From NCBI RefSeq assembly GCF_030930995.1, contig NZ_CP133217.1, forward strand, positions 2,966,001 through 3,030,000: a DNA stretch of 64,000 nucleotides. Reading direction: 5' to 3'. The notes under the pieces were generated by a model. It was not told the origin of the DNA. It searched no databases and saw nothing but the letters and a program-made list of their open reading frames with translations. Each line of letters starts with the position of its first letter. Position 1 is the first letter of the stretch. The translations under genes and the position numbers were made by a program. This DNA is from Thiothrix subterranea (GTDB lineage Bacteria; Pseudomonadota; Gammaproteobacteria; Thiotrichales; Thiotrichaceae). Positions 35,469-47,796 of the stretch are shown piece by piece.

Positions 35469-36359
35469 TCATTCTTGCAATAGCCCAAGATACGTTAGCA
35501 AAGCATCGCTCAATGCACCGGCGGCGACCTGATCAAATCCTGCAAACATTGGGTTAGTATTGATCTCCAAAAACTGCCACTCCCCCGTATGCGGGTCAGT
35601 TTTGAAATCAGCCGCTGCGAAATCCAGCCCTAAATGATCCGACAAGCACGCCAGTTTTTCCACCAAATCACCCGGCACATCCACCACCTGCATCCGAGTA
35701 GCGGACGCTGAACGGTAATCCAATGCTTCCGCCTGAATCAGAAAGCCAAACCAAGCGTTACCAATACGAAATACCCGCAATTCCGGCGAAGCTAAACGCC
35801 GTTGCACAATCTGCGGGTAAGCCAGTATGTTATTACCCGTGATTTCATGCGCTGCCAACGGGGTACAGTAAGCGCCGCCCGTCACGGGTTTAGCCACCCA
35901 CTCCCCGTGTTCATGCAACTGCGCCAGCGCGAAAAGGTCGTTGCTGACATACGTATCAGCAACGTTAAACCCCATGCTCAACGCCAAGCGCAACATATAG
36001 GGCTTATTAACCCCGCCACACGGCAGGAACCGCCGATTACACAACGCAATATCCGGCGAACTTAATAGCCAGCCGGATACGCTAACAAACCATTCACGCG
36101 CTGCTGAATTATCTTGCGCATTGTTGCTCTTCAGGTAAGCAAACACATCCTGTCGGATAAATGCTGCCGATACTGCGACTTCCTTGTCGTCATCCAGCAA
36201 ACGGTTGCGGTGAATATCCCAATGCAAACGCGGCGAACCCGATTGCCCTGTGAGCAAACAATGCACGGGAATATCATGCAATGCCGCCCGTTTCAGCAGA
36301 CGTACCAATTGAGGGTCAGTGTCACCGCCTGCCAATAGCAATCGGGGCTTTATTGTCAT
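35469..36359 (-). CDS. ATP-grasp ligase, probable graspetide synthetase
   Basis: A 296-residue ATP-grasp enzyme of the MvdD/RimK-like type. Visible are the nucleotide-binding lysine segment WVAKPVTGGAYCTPL, the ELRVFRIG strand, the metal-binding AAADFKTD and FLEINTNPMFAGFD. The size and the FLEIN...MFAGFD ending resemble peptide ligases that form omega-ester or amide rings in precursor peptides. The gene directly upstream, 12 bases away, encodes a protein ending in two TTxxxxEE cores, the plesiocin-type substrate motif; this is the main evidence for the assignment. It probably links Thr hydroxyls to Glu carboxylates (inference). Confidence 0.75.
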   Translation of the reverse strand: MTIKPRLLLAGGDTDPQLVRLLKRAALHDIPVHCLLTGQSGSPRLHWDIHRNRLLDDDKEVAVSAAFIRQDVFAYLKSNNAQDNSAAREWFVSVSGWLLSSPDIALCNRRFLPCGGVNKPYMLRLALSMGFNVADTYVSNDLFALAQLHEHGEWVAKPVTGGAYCTPLAAHEITGNNILAYPQIVQRRLASPELRVFRIGNAWFGFLIQAEALDYRSASATRMQVVDVPGDLVEKLACLSDHLGLDFAAADFKTDPHTGEWQFLEINTNPMFAGFDQVAAGALSDALLTYLGLLQE

Positions 36360-36371
36360 GGTTGAATCACC

Positions 36372-37355
36372 TTATTTGTAATCGTGATGCCCACCGTCTT
36401 CTTCGCCAATTGCCAATGTGGTCACAATCGGGGCATCCACTGGCGGCAAACCACCGTCTTCCTCACCCAGTGCTAAAGTTGTGAATTGCGGTTCTGGCTG
36501 AAAATTGCTAATGGTGTAGCCCATTTCCTCGTCGGCTATTTGGAAGCTTTGATCAATATAAATCGACGTTGGCAAACCGTACTGCTTGTCGTAGCTGACA
36601 TCAACCTTAGCCGCACCGCTCTTGATACCCTGCTCCACCAAATTAAACAAACCATCCGCATTCAAATTGTAAATAGACTGCTTATTTGTTTGGCGGTCAT
36701 CAGGGAGCAACTCACCGGTATCCGCATAAGTAGCCGACTTCACGCTCCCGTCACGTACTTCAATATTAATCGGGCGGATAGCATCACCCCGACAGAAGCA
36801 ATTGCGCTGCAAGGTAAACGAATAATCGTCAATATCCAGCGAATCCCACTTTTTACGGTTCGCGTCCAACTGTTGTTGCGCGTCTGAGCCTGTGGAACCA
36901 CCCGCATTAATCGCTTTCACATCCCGTGCGGTCAATTTCTGCCGCGAAATTTCCCCACCGGTAATACCGCCGGAAATGACCAAGGTATCGCCCGCACTGA
37001 GCTTGCCATCCTTTTTACTATCCAGCACTTCGTAACTCAACGCGCCTTTAATATCGAAACGTTCGCGCACCGCTTTATCTTGCTGCCGCGTCAATTGCAG
37101 CGGTTTAGGTTGCGGCCTGGGTGGCTCAGTCGTGGGCAATTTATCACCAATTACCTGAATCAACTGCATAATGAGCTTAATTAGGGCTTCATTATCGCCT
37201 TTTCCAAATGTGTTGTTGCCTGACTTGCTTTGAATGGCTTTCACCGCATCGCCAAGCACGCTAGTAGCAGTCGCCAGCGTCTGGGCTGAACTGCTGCTGC
37301 TTTGATTAGCGGCCTGCGTCGGCTTGATGCCACTGCTCTGTGTTATCCCTGTCAT
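36372..37355 (-). CDS. Large graspetide precursor with DUF6174 domain and two TTxxxxEE cores
   Basis: A 327-residue protein whose tail carries TTLALGEEDGG (residues 292-302) and TTLAIGEEDGG (312-322), exactly 20 residues apart. Both match the TTxxxxEE core repeat of plesiocin-class graspetides. The remainder is far longer than a usual leader: a Ser/Gln-rich start, an EF-hand-like loop (DSKKDGKLSAGD, about 117-128), and a DUF6174-like domain (about 165-285) with NCFCRGD and YGLPTSIYID. No signal peptide is evident. GGAGGA 8 bases before ATG 37355 fixes the start; the frame further upstream is discarded. The adjacent ATP-grasp gene is the predicted modifying enzyme. Confidence 0.75.
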   Translation of the reverse strand: MTGITQSSGIKPTQAANQSSSSSAQTLATATSVLGDAVKAIQSKSGNNTFGKGDNEALIKLIMQLIQVIGDKLPTTEPPRPQPKPLQLTRQQDKAVRERFDIKGALSYEVLDSKKDGKLSAGDTLVISGGITGGEISRQKLTARDVKAINAGGSTGSDAQQQLDANRKKWDSLDIDDYSFTLQRNCFCRGDAIRPINIEVRDGSVKSATYADTGELLPDDRQTNKQSIYNLNADGLFNLVEQGIKSGAAKVDVSYDKQYGLPTSIYIDQSFQIADEEMGYTISNFQPEPQFTTLALGEEDGGLPPVDAPIVTTLAIGEEDGGHHDYK

Positions 37356-37560: not shown

Positions 37561-39738
37561 ATGGCAACCCGCGAAGAACTCAGCGCACAAGCATCCGCCT
37601 GCAACGATGCAGAATCCTACGCCGCCCTTGCTAAACAAGCCGCAGCCGAACCCGCCGACCTAGACTACGCCAAAGAATTGCTGGCAAAAGGCGAATCCAA
37701 CTGCTCCTTCCCCGCGCATTACGTCGCCGTTGCAGAAGGCTATGTGGCAGTTGGTGATAACGACAAAGCCGCTGCTTTGTACGACGAAGCTGCCGATGGC
37801 TGCTTTGATGCCAAAGAAAAAGCCGAAACCGGTTACAGCATTGCCAAATTCCTCGGCAACCGCGACAAAGGTCGTGCATTGTTGGAAGAAGCCATCAGCG
37901 AAACCACCAATACCACCGAATTACTGTCTTACGCCGGTTACGTGCAAGACGCGCTGCAAGATAACGCGCTTGCCAACAAACTGTTCAGCAAAGTCACTGC
38001 CAACTGCAAAAGCATTGCCGACTACCAGAAACTGGCAAGCGACATTAAAAACAGCGGCAACCCTACCACCGCGCTGATGGTCTTCAAAAAAGCTGCACCT
38101 TCCAGCAGCGAAACTGCCGATGTGGTGAGCTTCGCCAAGGGTTTGAAAGACCTGTTCGGCGATGACAAAGAAGTTGCCGCAACGCTTGCCGATGCCGAAA
38201 GCAACTGCATGTTCCCGGCGCAATTCGTCACACTCGCAGGCGGTTTCATGAACCTGCTGGGTGATAAAGACAAAGCCGAAGACTTGTTGGAACAAGGTAA
38301 AAACTTCGCCATGAGCGGTGAAGAAAACCTCGATCTGGCAACCGGTTACGCCAGCTTGCTGAACGATCAAGCCACCGCTAAAGATATGTACGGTGTTGCC
38401 CTGAACGAATTCAGCGGCAAAGAAGACCTGCTGAAACTCGCCAGTGCCGTTGCCGCCAACATGGATGACAAAACCATCGCGGGCAAAGCTTACGACAAAC
38501 TCGCCAGCAAACTCAGCACCCCTACCGATTTAGCAATGTTGGCAAAAGCCGTCAACGATAACCTCGGTGACAAAGACCGCGTTGCCAGCATTTACGCTGC
38601 TGCGGAAAGCAAAGCCACTAACGCTGCCGCCTTGGTATCACTCGCAGGCGAAGTCAACGCCAACCTGCAAGACCCTGCCAAAACCAACGCGCTGTACGCC
38701 AAAGCGGTTGACGCTTGCAAAGTTTACACTGACGCAACCAGCATCCTCGAAGCATTGGCGAAAAACCCAGCCGATGCCGCACTTGCCGCGACCTCCCTGC
38801 AAAAAGCCTTGGAACTGACCGAAACCAACGCACAAGTGTTAGACGTAGCGCAACGCGCACAAAAACTGACGCCGGGCGACAATACCGTGGTCATTCAGGC
38901 TCTCGACAAAGCCGAAGCTAACGTCAGTTCCCTCGATGAAATGCGCAAACTCGCCAATGCCTCCAAGCAATTGCTGGCGGATGATGCCGAGCGCAACGAC
39001 CGCATCAGCGGGAAGCTGGCAAAGCGTGAAGCCAGCCAAGCGCGTTACACCGAATTCCAAAATCAGGAAAAAACCCTGACGCGCCCCAACCAGTTCATTG
39101 CACTGGCAGGTGCAGTGGTCGAAGAACTGGAAGACACCTCCTACGCCAGCCAATTGCTGACCACGGCGGAAGAAAAGATGCAGGAAGCCGGTACATTCAG
39201 CTTTGCGGCTTACCAGCCACTGATCGTTTCCGTCGGCAATCTGGTGAAAGACAAAGCATGGTTAGCCCGTTTGCTCGACTTAGCCGCTAACAACAGCAAT
39301 ACCTTTGCCCAAGTGCGCAACCTCGGCGAAACCGTCAGCAAGCAACTCAGCGACACCGAGTTTGGTAAAACTTGGACGCAGCAATTCTACGCCGCGCAAC
39401 TGGAAAAGCTGGATGCCAGCAACGCCAGTACTTTCGAGTACAACAAGCTTGCCAAAGCGGTGAAAGAGCATTTGGATGACGATGCGCAAGCGCAAACCAT
39501 TCTGGACAAAGGCGAAGCCAAAGCTCAAAACCATTTCCACTTTGCTTACATGGCAGAACTGGCGCAAAAATGGGGCAATAGCAGCAAAGCCGAGAGCTTG
39601 TACGCCAAAGCCACCGCCGCGTGTCAGGATGCCAGCCAGCAACGTGAATTGGCGGATTTGATGCGTAAAGCGGGTGTGGTGAGCACACTGGCGCAAGCGG
39701 CAACGCCAAGTCAGGGTGGCAAAGGCACTTATTGGTAA
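37561..39738 (+). CDS. Large acidic helical-repeat (TPR-like) protein
   Basis: A 725-residue, acidic, almost entirely helical protein built from about 18-20 degenerate units of 35-40 residues. These recur as paired helices such as DKAAALYDEAADGC, DKAEDLLEQGKNFA, KTNALYAKAVDAC and SKAESLYAKATAAC. The arrangement resembles TPR/Sel1-like solenoids used as protein-interaction scaffolds. No signal peptide or catalytic motif. A GGAGGA site precedes the ATG. It is followed after 40 bases by the papain-like protease, so it may be a scaffold or substrate in that unit (inference). Confidence 0.65.
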   Translation: MATREELSAQASACNDAESYAALAKQAAAEPADLDYAKELLAKGESNCSFPAHYVAVAEGYVAVGDNDKAAALYDEAADGCFDAKEKAETGYSIAKFLGNRDKGRALLEEAISETTNTTELLSYAGYVQDALQDNALANKLFSKVTANCKSIADYQKLASDIKNSGNPTTALMVFKKAAPSSSETADVVSFAKGLKDLFGDDKEVAATLADAESNCMFPAQFVTLAGGFMNLLGDKDKAEDLLEQGKNFAMSGEENLDLATGYASLLNDQATAKDMYGVALNEFSGKEDLLKLASAVAANMDDKTIAGKAYDKLASKLSTPTDLAMLAKAVNDNLGDKDRVASIYAAAESKATNAAALVSLAGEVNANLQDPAKTNALYAKAVDACKVYTDATSILEALAKNPADAALAATSLQKALELTETNAQVLDVAQRAQKLTPGDNTVVIQALDKAEANVSSLDEMRKLANASKQLLADDAERNDRISGKLAKREASQARYTEFQNQEKTLTRPNQFIALAGAVVEELEDTSYASQLLTTAEEKMQEAGTFSFAAYQPLIVSVGNLVKDKAWLARLLDLAANNSNTFAQVRNLGETVSKQLSDTEFGKTWTQQFYAAQLEKLDASNASTFEYNKLAKAVKEHLDDDAQAQTILDKGEAKAQNHFHFAYMAELAQKWGNSSKAESLYAKATAACQDASQQRELADLMRKAGVVSTLAQAATPSQGGKGTYW

Positions 39739-39778: not shown

Positions 39779-41155
39779 ATGAAACCCCGTAGCCATCAAG
39801 TTGGCGGCTGCCGGGTTGGGGCTGTCCCCACGGATGCCAAACGCCGTAAAATTGGCCGTTCTGCCGCGAAACCGTTGCCCGCTAAAGTTGACCTACGTCC
39901 GTATTTGACTGAGGTTGAGGAACAAGTGGGCAACAGTTGCGTGGCGAATGCGTGCGCAGGTGCGTATGAATACTTGGCTAAACGTCATTTGGGGGAATCC
40001 GCTGATGTCAGCCGCTTGTTTATTTATTACAACGCCCGTTATGAAGACGATGACATCGAGAATGACGACGGCACATCCATGCAATCGGCGATCGAGGGAT
40101 TAAAGAAGTACGGTGCGTGCCACGAAAATTTGTGGCCTAACGACACAGACTACATTACCGAAGAACCGGCGGCGGAAGCTTATGAACACGCCGCCAATTT
40201 CAAAATTGCCGAAGCTGAATACGTCGAAACGGATTTGGATTTGTATCGCCACACCTTGGCAGAAGGCTACCCCATTGCGTTTTGCTTGAACACCTTCTCT
40301 TCGTTTGATGAAGCAACCGACAACCGTGGGCGCGTCCCTTTACCAAAAAAGACCGAGCAGGTACGCGAAGAACACGGCTGGCACGCCATGCTTTGTGTTG
40401 GCTATTTAGACAAAGATAAGATGTTCATCGTGCGTAATTCTTGGGGCAATGAATGGGGCGACAATGGCTATTGCTACATTCCCTACAAATACGTGATTCA
40501 CGCTGAACTCAACGGACATGATACTTGGGTCGTCAAAGCGGTTGAGGACTTGGATTTTAATGCTGACATTGAATCCGAAGATGACAGCTCTTACTTTGCG
40601 GAAGATGGCGCAATCCAACTGTTCGATTTCTATGTTGCCACGGATGCGGTTGAGGATTTCTCTACGGCATTGGAAGCATTGTGTGAACAATATGCCAATG
40701 AAGAAGCATTCTATTTCGACTACGAAGAAAGCGAAGAAGATGGCATCACTTACGCCATTATCAGCAACTTCGACATCTCGTTGGATGACCCTGAAACGTT
40801 CTTGGAAGCGCTGGATACGTTGTGCAACGAATGGGCAGACGCTGAAAATTACGCTTTCAGCATAGAAGGTTACGACGATGATGATAGCGAAGCCGCTGCC
40901 GCACTGACTTTAAGTGATTTCTATATCTACACCGACAACGTTGAAACCGTCGCCGCAAAAATTGAAAAATTATGCGCCAAACACACGACTGACGATGATT
41001 ACACGCTTGAATGGGAAGAGAGCGAGGATGAAAACGGTGCTTACCTTGGATTTTCAACCTTTGAAATCACACCAGATGATGAAGAAGCATTTTTAGCCGC
41101 ACTGGAAACACTTTGCGAAAAACTATCCAACGATAACGGTTATAACTGGGAATAA
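39779..41155 (+). CDS. Papain-like (C1 family) cysteine protease with acidic C-terminal repeats
   Basis: A 458-residue protein. Residues 37-255 are a papain fold with an intact catalytic set: Gln49 and Cys54 in QVGNSCVANAC, His202 in HGWHAMLCVGY, Asn220 in VRNSWGNEWGDNGY. There is no signal peptide, so it is likely cytoplasmic, and no classic long propeptide. Residues 285-458 hold four acidic half-repeats with the pattern F-D/E-I-x2-DD-x-E-x-F-x2-ALE-x-LCE. The stop overlaps the start of the next gene by one base (TAATG), coupling the protease to the helicase. Its targets are unknown; the nearby graspetide precursor is one candidate (inference). Confidence 0.8.
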   Translation: MKPRSHQVGGCRVGAVPTDAKRRKIGRSAAKPLPAKVDLRPYLTEVEEQVGNSCVANACAGAYEYLAKRHLGESADVSRLFIYYNARYEDDDIENDDGTSMQSAIEGLKKYGACHENLWPNDTDYITEEPAAEAYEHAANFKIAEAEYVETDLDLYRHTLAEGYPIAFCLNTFSSFDEATDNRGRVPLPKKTEQVREEHGWHAMLCVGYLDKDKMFIVRNSWGNEWGDNGYCYIPYKYVIHAELNGHDTWVVKAVEDLDFNADIESEDDSSYFAEDGAIQLFDFYVATDAVEDFSTALEALCEQYANEEAFYFDYEESEEDGITYAIISNFDISLDDPETFLEALDTLCNEWADAENYAFSIEGYDDDDSEAAAALTLSDFYIYTDNVETVAAKIEKLCAKHTTDDDYTLEWEESEDENGAYLGFSTFEITPDDEEAFLAALETLCEKLSNDNGYNWE

Positions 41156-46558: not shown

Positions 46559-47137
46559 TTAGCCAAGATTAACGCCCATTGAGGCAGCCATCGGGCCTAA
46601 ACCACCGGCAAAACCTTGACCAACTGCTTTGAATTTCCAGTCAGCATTATGGCGATACACTTCACCAAACAGCATAGCCGTTTCCACGCTGGCATCTTCT
46701 GACAGGTCATAACGGGCAATTTCAGTATTATCCGCCGCATTCACCAAACGGATATACGCATTGCTAACTTGCCCAAAGTTTTGACCACGTGCTTCGGCAT
46801 CATGAATAGTGACAGCAAATACCAATTTCTTAACATTTTCGCCCATGCCTGCAAGGTTCAATTTCACCTGTTCATCATCACCAGCACCTTCGCCGGTTTT
46901 GTTATCACCCAGATGTTCGACATTGCCGCACGCAGATTTCTTATTGTTGTAGAAAATAAACGAGTCATCGGACAATACTTTACCGTTTTCGCCCAACATA
47001 AATGCGGAGGCATCCAAGTCAAAGCCAGCACCATCGGTCGCACGGGTATCCCAACCCAAACCAACCAATACGCCGGTTAAACCAGGGGCTTCTTTGCTTA
47101 AAGAAACATTGCCACCTTTTTGTAAACTAACAGCCAT
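46559..47137 (-). CDS. terD: TerD-family calcium-binding stress protein
   Basis: A 192-residue TerD/TerE protein. [44 protein letters not shown] and [20 protein letters not shown] carry the acidic calcium-binding positions. GGAG precedes the ATG by 8 bases. It is closely related to the next upstream gene (tandem duplication). Confidence 0.93.
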
Positions 47138-47175
47138 TGTAAAACTCCATTATCTTCAGTATTTAATAAAAAACA

Positions 47176-47754
47176 TTAACCAATTTGAATGCCATATTGG
47201 TCACACATCGCTTTTAAACCGCCCGCATAACCTTGCCCCACGGCACGGAATTTCCATTCCTCGTTATGGCGGTACAACTCACCGAACACCATCGCGGTTT
47301 CAGTGGAATAATCTTCTGCCAAATCGTAGCGCACAATTTCCGTGCCGGTAACGTCATTGACCACGCGAATGAATGCATTCGCGACTTGTCCAAAATTCTG
47401 CCGACGAGCATCAGCATCATGGATTGTCACGGTGAAAGCCACTTTCGTAATGTCGGCAGGCACTTTGCTTAAATCCACTTTCATGGATTCGTCATCGCCA
47501 TCGCCTTGCCCGGTACGGTTATCGCCAGTGTGTTCAACGGAACCGTCGGTAGATTTCAATTGGTTATAGAAAATGAAATCCGCGTCACCACGCACTTTGC
47601 CCGTCGCGGTCAACAAAAATGCACTGGCATCCAAGTCAAACGCAGAACCATCGGTACTGCGCTCATCCCAGCCCAAGCCGATCAGAATTTTAGTTAAACT
47701 GGGATCAGTTTTGCTTAAGGAAAGGTTGCCACCTTTTTGTAAACTTAACGCCAT
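47176..47754 (-). CDS. terE: TerD-family calcium-binding stress protein
   Basis: A 192-residue paralogue of the preceding protein with the same layout ([62 protein letters not shown]). A strong AAGGAGG site lies 7 bases before the ATG. The TerD versus TerE name is arbitrary here. Confidence 0.92.
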
Positions 47755-47796
47755 GATTTGCCTCCTTAGTGAATTTTCTTAACTGTTATACATCAA

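Follow-up and report, generated by a model that had tools for sequence, protein, structure and literature searches.

Graspetides and their precursors

Plesiocin, a group 2 graspetide of the PlpA/PlpB system, has the core TTxxxxEE. It is described as consisting of several units with two esters each (PMC12291112), as needing a single ATP-grasp enzyme (PMC8939145) and as rising in potency with the number of its units (PMC13097080). The graspetides characterised at the time of one survey were, by its account, all protease inhibitors (PMC8939145), and the microviridin B precursor, when fully modified, is reported to inhibit elastase with its leader still on (PMC11672978). In fuscimiditide, by the account given, the enzyme seems to be contacted by no more than a short stretch of the leader (PMC13003496), and one graspetide synthetase is reported to cyclise engineered substrates that hold whole proteins (PMC12291112). 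The candidates of the survey were at most 150 aa long, as stated there, and its clusters mostly of that size, so graspetide-protein fusions could escape it (PMC8939145); long precursors with repeats are mentioned for graspetide groups 34 and 35 (PMC13097080).

A locus of Thiothrix subterranea, within an analysed stretch of 64,000 nucleotides (the window), shares with plesiocin a single ATP-grasp enzyme and a repeated core in which two Thr precede two Glu. Unlike in plesiocin, the cores are borne by a 327-aa protein with a DUF6174 domain, an EF-hand-like block and, in some relatives, RTX repeats, and the 296-aa ligase is of a clade seen only in this family. Corallotide (group 15) is like it in having an unusually large precursor with repeated motifs, and unlike it in the Lys isopeptide links at KxxxD motifs, in an oxygenase and in its Corallococcus origin, as far as its description goes (PMC13097080). 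The locus is a graspetide (omega-ester) locus of new architecture. The literature searched, with subscription journals thinly covered, yielded no mention of DUF6174 and, among the papers listed, none of Thiothrix and graspetides together; two listed papers pair Thiothrix with RiPP.

The locus and its substrate protein

The two genes, the parts of the first and one neighbour are:

36372..37355, minus strand: precursor or substrate protein of 327 aa, with DUF6174 and two C-terminal cores (open reading frame and translation)
37200..37355, minus strand: Ser/Thr/Gln-rich N-terminal segment, residues 1-52 (sequence, model and hydropathy)
37140..37199, minus strand: Leu/Ile-rich amphipathic helix, residues 53-72 (predicted, pLDDT about 45-60)
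36906..37106, minus strand: EF-hand-like block, residues 84-150 (profile match to the block of untailed DUF6174 proteins)
36495..36872, minus strand: DUF6174 domain, residues 162-287 (Pfam PF19671)
36450..36482, minus strand: core 1, TTLALGEEDGG, residues 292-302
36390..36422, minus strand: core 2, TTLAIGEEDGG, residues 312-322
35469..36359, minus strand: ATP-grasp ligase of 296 aa, presumed graspetide synthetase, starting 12 bases past the precursor stop
37561..39738, plus strand: neighbouring divergent gene, whose 725-aa product gives weak TPR matches below threshold

The open reading frames, their coordinates, the two motif copies 20 residues apart and the 12-base gap are as given in a first-pass annotation of this DNA, and its DUF6174-like domain is PF19671, matched at 145.8 bits against a cut-off of 23.8 (E 9.9e-43). 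That annotation had also set the precursor apart from the short ones of the plesiocin type, which its 327 aa with DUF6174 bear out. A ribosome-binding-like GGAGG precedes the start ATG at 37355. Compared with six controls, the window protein has no strongly hydrophobic start; its residues 23-45 are modelled as a helix with low confidence (AlphaFold), and the predicted helix of residues 53-72 is a candidate recognition or export element. The EF-hand-like loop named in the first-pass annotation is visible by eye at residues 112-123 (DSKKDGKLSAGD), but at E<=1 the window protein matches no Pfam model for EF-hands or RTX.

Conservation of the pair

The ligase was searched for in 63 genomes of the family, and the neighbourhoods were examined in all 20 genomes with a match. 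Fifteen of these form one close clade, with 55-100% identity (98% between the ligases of the window and Thiothrix caldifontis), and five are distant, with 23-31% identity over about half of the protein. The ligase adjoins a DUF6174 protein bearing between one and four cores in 14 of the 15 close loci. At the fifteenth, L035 of genome G059, the precursor has 151 aa, three cores and a helix like that of the others; DUF6174 is absent from it while helix, cores and ligase are kept. Among the distant loci, L041, L042 and L039 have short precursors with three, five or six cores, L040 has a precursor with a different repeat, and at L043 no precursor is visible beside the ligase. The proposal of a graspetide locus with a DUF6174-bearing precursor, which its authors had made dependent on the tails being conserved beside the ATP-grasp gene, is supported by the 14 of 15 loci in which they are; the RTX-bearing versions, the untailed protein family and the locus without DUF6174 are additions to that first reading.

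The 63 family genomes were also searched, without regard to homology, for DNA that encodes TTxxxGEEDG, with the backwards pattern as control. This gave 46 matches in 17 of the genomes, every one in a candidate precursor, and none for the control. The ligase search had already found 15 of these 17 genomes. In genome G039 there is a second ligase locus with a TTxxxGEEDG precursor, and in G023 the contig ends within such a precursor, with no ligase seen. Three close-clade genomes (G048, G061 and G062) were missed because their single cores are without the DGG part. A class-wide sample of 369 genomes gave six matches, against three for the backwards control, in three genomes: that of the window, G045 and G224, the last with one short precursor that has no DUF6174 and lies on a 4.5-kb contig with no ligase. 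In the same sample no member of the close ligase clade turned up outside the family, the best E value besides the window genome being 3.8e-16. Viral contigs held no relative of DUF6174 or the ligase, and plasmids none of the precursor, with distant ligases in 14 plasmid records. Among the genomes searched, the architecture of DUF6174 with cores is confined to Thiothrix and a second genus of the same family.

From the DUF6174 side, the family and class searches with a local model gave 140 matches, reduced to 93 ORFs (some cut by contig ends, and with unequal flanks) by removing 47 repeats; these included the distinct untailed genes L025 and L150, and the result is unchanged by them. Cores are present in 14 of the 93, and these are the very 14 that adjoin a close-clade ligase, at distances of 1-545 bases. 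Fisher's test gives 7e-17 for the association of cores and ligase, a value that overstates the case since the rows are related; no exception was seen. Genome G057 (L134) has a DUF6174 gene at the same place and no ligase, and was counted as untailed, with a run of N just after DUF6174. Such constancy would also be expected if DUF6174 were a partner or chaperone of the ligase in cis, the fused equivalent of the partner protein that rosaritide requires; partner-dependent graspetide synthesis is described (PMC13097080), and 14 of the 15 loci retain DUF6174. That role is nevertheless improbable, as the locus without DUF6174 keeps ligase and cores, and 79 of the 93 DUF6174 ORFs, those without cores, have no such ligase within 2 kb in the genome stretches compared; two of the coreless ones, S8 proteases with DUF6174, lie about 4 kb from a ligase.

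Cores and ligase

Two or more copies of TTxxxxEE arose in 5 of 200,000 shuffles of the window protein. One copy alone means little, because a single one is present in one other of the 160 window ORFs of at least 100 aa; what is taken as decisive is conservation. The close clade has 36 copies (35 under a pattern requiring three residues after EE). In all 36 the second Thr, the Gly at position 6 and both Glu (positions 7 and 8) are invariant while their codons vary; the first Thr is replaced once, by Ser, and D9, G10 and G11 vary slightly. Position 3 is Leu in 23 copies, Met in nine, Lys in three and Gln in one. When the ten TT/GEE codons of the window were compared with those of ten relatives, nine comparisons showed no amino-acid change and 0-6 silent changes, the exception being L032, whose one core aligns badly (4.5 amino-acid changes at core codons). 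This is taken to show that the cores are under selection. L032, L037 and L038 have a single core with an altered DGG part. The core tail was modelled by AlphaFold without structure, at a pLDDT of about 30; searched against the PDB, the 43-aa tail gave weak protocadherin matches only (best E 0.056) and A2 gave no match.

The window ligase has no Pfam match at E<=1, and its matches to graspetide-maturase models are below the cut-offs (TIGR04187, E 1.3e-21, 77 of 350 bits). A profile of its clade matches six distinct PDB sequences, all ATP-grasp ligases of the graspetide-synthetase kind. The best match, at 1.6e-19, is 7drm, titled ATP-grasp protein, which we take to be PsnB; the others are AMdnB (7m4s), an MvdD-like protein (9bou), CdnC (7mgv) and the ATP-grasp ligases 5ig8 and 5ig9. 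Microviridin-type synthetases are among the matches. The earlier naming of an ATP-grasp ligase 12 bases downstream is borne out. The motifs KPV-x-GG, LDYR, DFK and EIN are invariant across 15 aligned ligase sequences.

The two genes would form a protein-modification module, in which the ligase would join two Thr to two Glu side chains in each TTxxxGEE unit to give nested ester rings, or hairpins. That it makes Thr-Glu ester rings as in plesiocin is, judging from motif and enzyme, very probable. The RTX and EF-like parts point to surroundings rich in calcium, so one could imagine that the tail escapes cross-linking by this ligase, its acidic repeats binding calcium or a surface while the ligase acts elsewhere. 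This is most unlikely, given that tail and ligase co-occur in 14 of 14 tailed DUF6174 proteins, that the second Thr, the Gly and both Glu are the invariant residues, and that the ligase matches known synthetases.

A probable older protein with a tail

Four DUF6174 proteins without cores (L117, L079, L119 and L072), with no such ligase in the stretches compared, have the same plan as the tailed protein: a polar start rich in Ser, Thr, Asn and Gln, a Leu-rich helix, an EF-hand-like block and DUF6174. Aligned with hhalign, the EF-like blocks of the tailed and untailed sets match at 99.6% (pairwise E 1.8e-23) and the Leu-rich helices at 86.6%, the latter figure being 54% between tailed proteins and short precursors. 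Pfam EF-hand models do match one relative, L118, and the tailed proteins of L036, L037 and L038 have no EF-like block. RTX repeats are present in four tailed relatives (L033, L034, L037 and L038), with Pfam confirmation (PF00353) in L033 and L038, the two checked.

The first-pass annotation had spoken of a leader of about 290 residues. Much of that segment is homologous to proteins that have no cores, so that the word leader does not apply to it in its ordinary meaning; with a similar helix and EF-like block in untailed relatives, it probably existed as a protein before the tail was acquired. DUF6174, the N-terminal helix and the EF-like block would then be the older architecture, with no disposable leader, and the comparison of sequences indicates that the tail was probably grafted onto it. 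In a DUF6174 tree the 14 tailed domains fall in one weakly supported group (45/82), together with the gene of G057 and two unsure rows; the tailed state takes four changes, at least one of them forced, which is compatible with one or several origins. L035 lies inside the DUF6174 group in the best ligase tree (91/90, not starred), so its missing DUF6174 would be a loss, and the tail-bearing scaffold was probably lost again once there.

A tail retained or released

Whether the long N-terminal part is an unusual leader or the tail is cross-linked in place had been left as alternatives, and the comparative evidence leans to the second. If the locus were that of an ordinary plesiocin-like RiPP with an oversized leader, a protease would free small inhibitors by severing the first core from DUF6174 and the cores from one another, and DUF6174 would merely carry or solubilise them. 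Short precursors with the same cores exist in the same family, and these distant relatives look like precursors of ordinary released peptides. The locus without DUF6174 keeps cores and ligase, so the scaffold is not needed for cores to be encoded, nor perhaps for them to function, which counts against a tethered tail. GG follows 29 of the 36 close-clade cores, making trimming after cores possible, and the Pro-rich linkers could also be cut. Peptidase genes lie within about 4 kb in five of the 15 loci: one of the C1 family about 2.4 kb off in three (the window, L026 and L032) and one for an S8 protease about 4 kb off in two (L027 and L044).

To set against this, the untailed homologues show that the N-terminal part can exist as an independent protein; none of the 15 close-clade precursors has a double Gly in the 20 residues before the first core; and no peptidase or transporter gene common to the 15 loci was found. 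In 13 of the 14 tailed proteins the first core begins only 5-7 residues past the last conserved DUF6174 motif, and that domain is under strong constraint, with 31 silent changes against five amino-acid changes between the window and L026. Release of small peptides is a serious alternative, though a rather doubtful one, and because of the untailed homologues, the short spacing, the missing pre-core GG and the lack of a common peptidase or transporter, we lean towards a tethered multi-headed inhibitor protein. In that preferred reading the tail would stay attached, and the finished product would be a protein, exported or at the surface, to which between one and four heads that inhibit serine proteases are tethered; the choice of protease may depend on the residue at position 3 of each core (Leu, Met, Lys or Gln). 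The chain as a whole, from cross-linked hairpins tethered on a DUF6174 protein to an exported inhibitor, is put forward tentatively, at slightly under an even chance.

Export and neighbouring genes

The highest ten-residue mean of N-terminal hydropathy is 0.24-1.92 in 14 precursors against 2.15-3.15 in the controls, six DUF6174 lipoproteins or proteases, and by this hydropathy of the starts no signal peptide was seen in the precursors. The RTX repeats of the four tailed relatives suggest export as a protein and, being in some relatives only, hint at type I secretion (ABC/HlyD/TolC). With no common secretion gene and no signal peptide seen, export is a guess.

ORFs of at least 100 aa around the 15 close loci were clustered, and besides the TPR-like gene no neighbour cluster is present in more than six of them. 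The TPR-like gene adjoins the pair in nine of the 15 and was considered as a third component; it is also found near pqiA-type genes without the pair in L135-L137 (G062, G054 and G058), and its position is therefore read as a common chromosomal one, the gene probably not being part of the system. Transporter-type genes occur in four of the 15 loci (L029, L034, L035 and L036). Downstream at L034 are genes for a GGDEF protein, an ORF without match and an ABC transporter, and near L029 there are MacB- and HlyD-type genes; the kinds differ from locus to locus, and these were not accepted as the export system. In two related genomes the graspetide pair has pairs of MacB_PCD/FtsX permease genes as its immediate neighbours (L035:4458-7002 and L036:8731-11275). 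These permeases resemble LolC/LolE, and were tempting given the LolA-like fold described below; they were set aside as their cluster is in two of the 15 loci only.

In the window the C1 gene is at 39779-41155 on the plus strand, adjoins the TPR-like gene and encodes a papain-family peptidase with an acidic, repetitive C-terminal half; its relatives are those of L026 and L032. At 46559-47778 on the minus strand there are two tandem related proteins, TerD-like by eye.

Elsewhere in the window genome (C2:3637580-3640933, L025) is an S8 subtilisin-like protease with a C-terminal DUF6174. Such proteases are present in 11 of 16 genomes of the window's genus (ten by motif, L025 by Pfam). As a linked gene this protease was rejected, being about 4 kb away in L027 and L044 and far away in the window genome. 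It has a domain in common with the presumed inhibitor and is a candidate target or relative.

A predicted LolA-like fold for DUF6174

AlphaFold models, built from three sequences, have a mean pLDDT of 58.9 for the whole protein and 73.0 for the DUF6174 domain alone. Foldseek found nothing below 0.001 with either model, the best E values being 1.0e-3 and 5.2e-3, to LolA and LolA-LolB entries. Nearly all the upper rows of VIA-align are LolA, LolB, RseB/MucB, LprG or LppX; the best match is MucB (6in8), with a Z of 7.2 and an rmsd of 3.9 over 119 residues, and the second model reaches a best Z of 6.5. DUF6174 is like these proteins in its predicted alpha-beta half-barrel, and unlike them in being shorter, with Z under 8 and identities of about 4-16% in the listed rows. 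With such middling values the modelled resemblance to the LolA/LolB/RseB fold is a lead without functional meaning. It is conceivable, though held with some doubt, that a LolA-like protein, folded and perhaps able to bind lipid, has ester-linked hairpin inhibitor heads installed on it in situ by the ligase and is exported intact.

Related precursors and wider relevance

Short precursors that start like MxGIFNYxVP and have cores like TTLALGEEDGG were seen in two families (L039, L041, L042, L217 and L218, with L222 in the other family). They share the near-identical cores and, in several, a Leu-rich helix before them; they differ in having no DUF6174 and another N-terminal motif. The ligases of L039, L041 and L042 are 28-31% identical to that of the window over about half of the length, and L218 and L222 are short contigs without a ligase on them.

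If the tail stays on, graspetide synthetases would modify full proteins in nature, which in the account available is so far achieved by engineering only (PMC12291112), and graspetide chemistry would here serve to modify a protein rather than to make a small peptide. DUF6174 gains its first testable setting, and a two-gene system of this kind might be able to equip a protein with cross-linked hairpins at its end.

Three further loci merit mention. At L040:7503-9030 (G039) a distant ATP-grasp gene is accompanied by a precursor that starts MSGIFNYQVPGR and ends in the repeat VTLATFESPSYNWP / NTLATFEAPNFVWP, possibly a different graspetide core to judge from its sequence. At L043:5809-8596 (G042) another distant ATP-grasp gene follows a DegP-like protease (Trypsin_2 and PDZ) by about 350 bases, with no TTxxxxEE precursor seen at the locus. 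Finally, four large proteins are encoded in tandem at L144:5186-14900 (G038). They contain DUF6174-like copies, and their Leu-rich helix is C-terminal or nearly so, with a polar tail after it in three of them, which mirrors the arrangement seen at the N-terminus.
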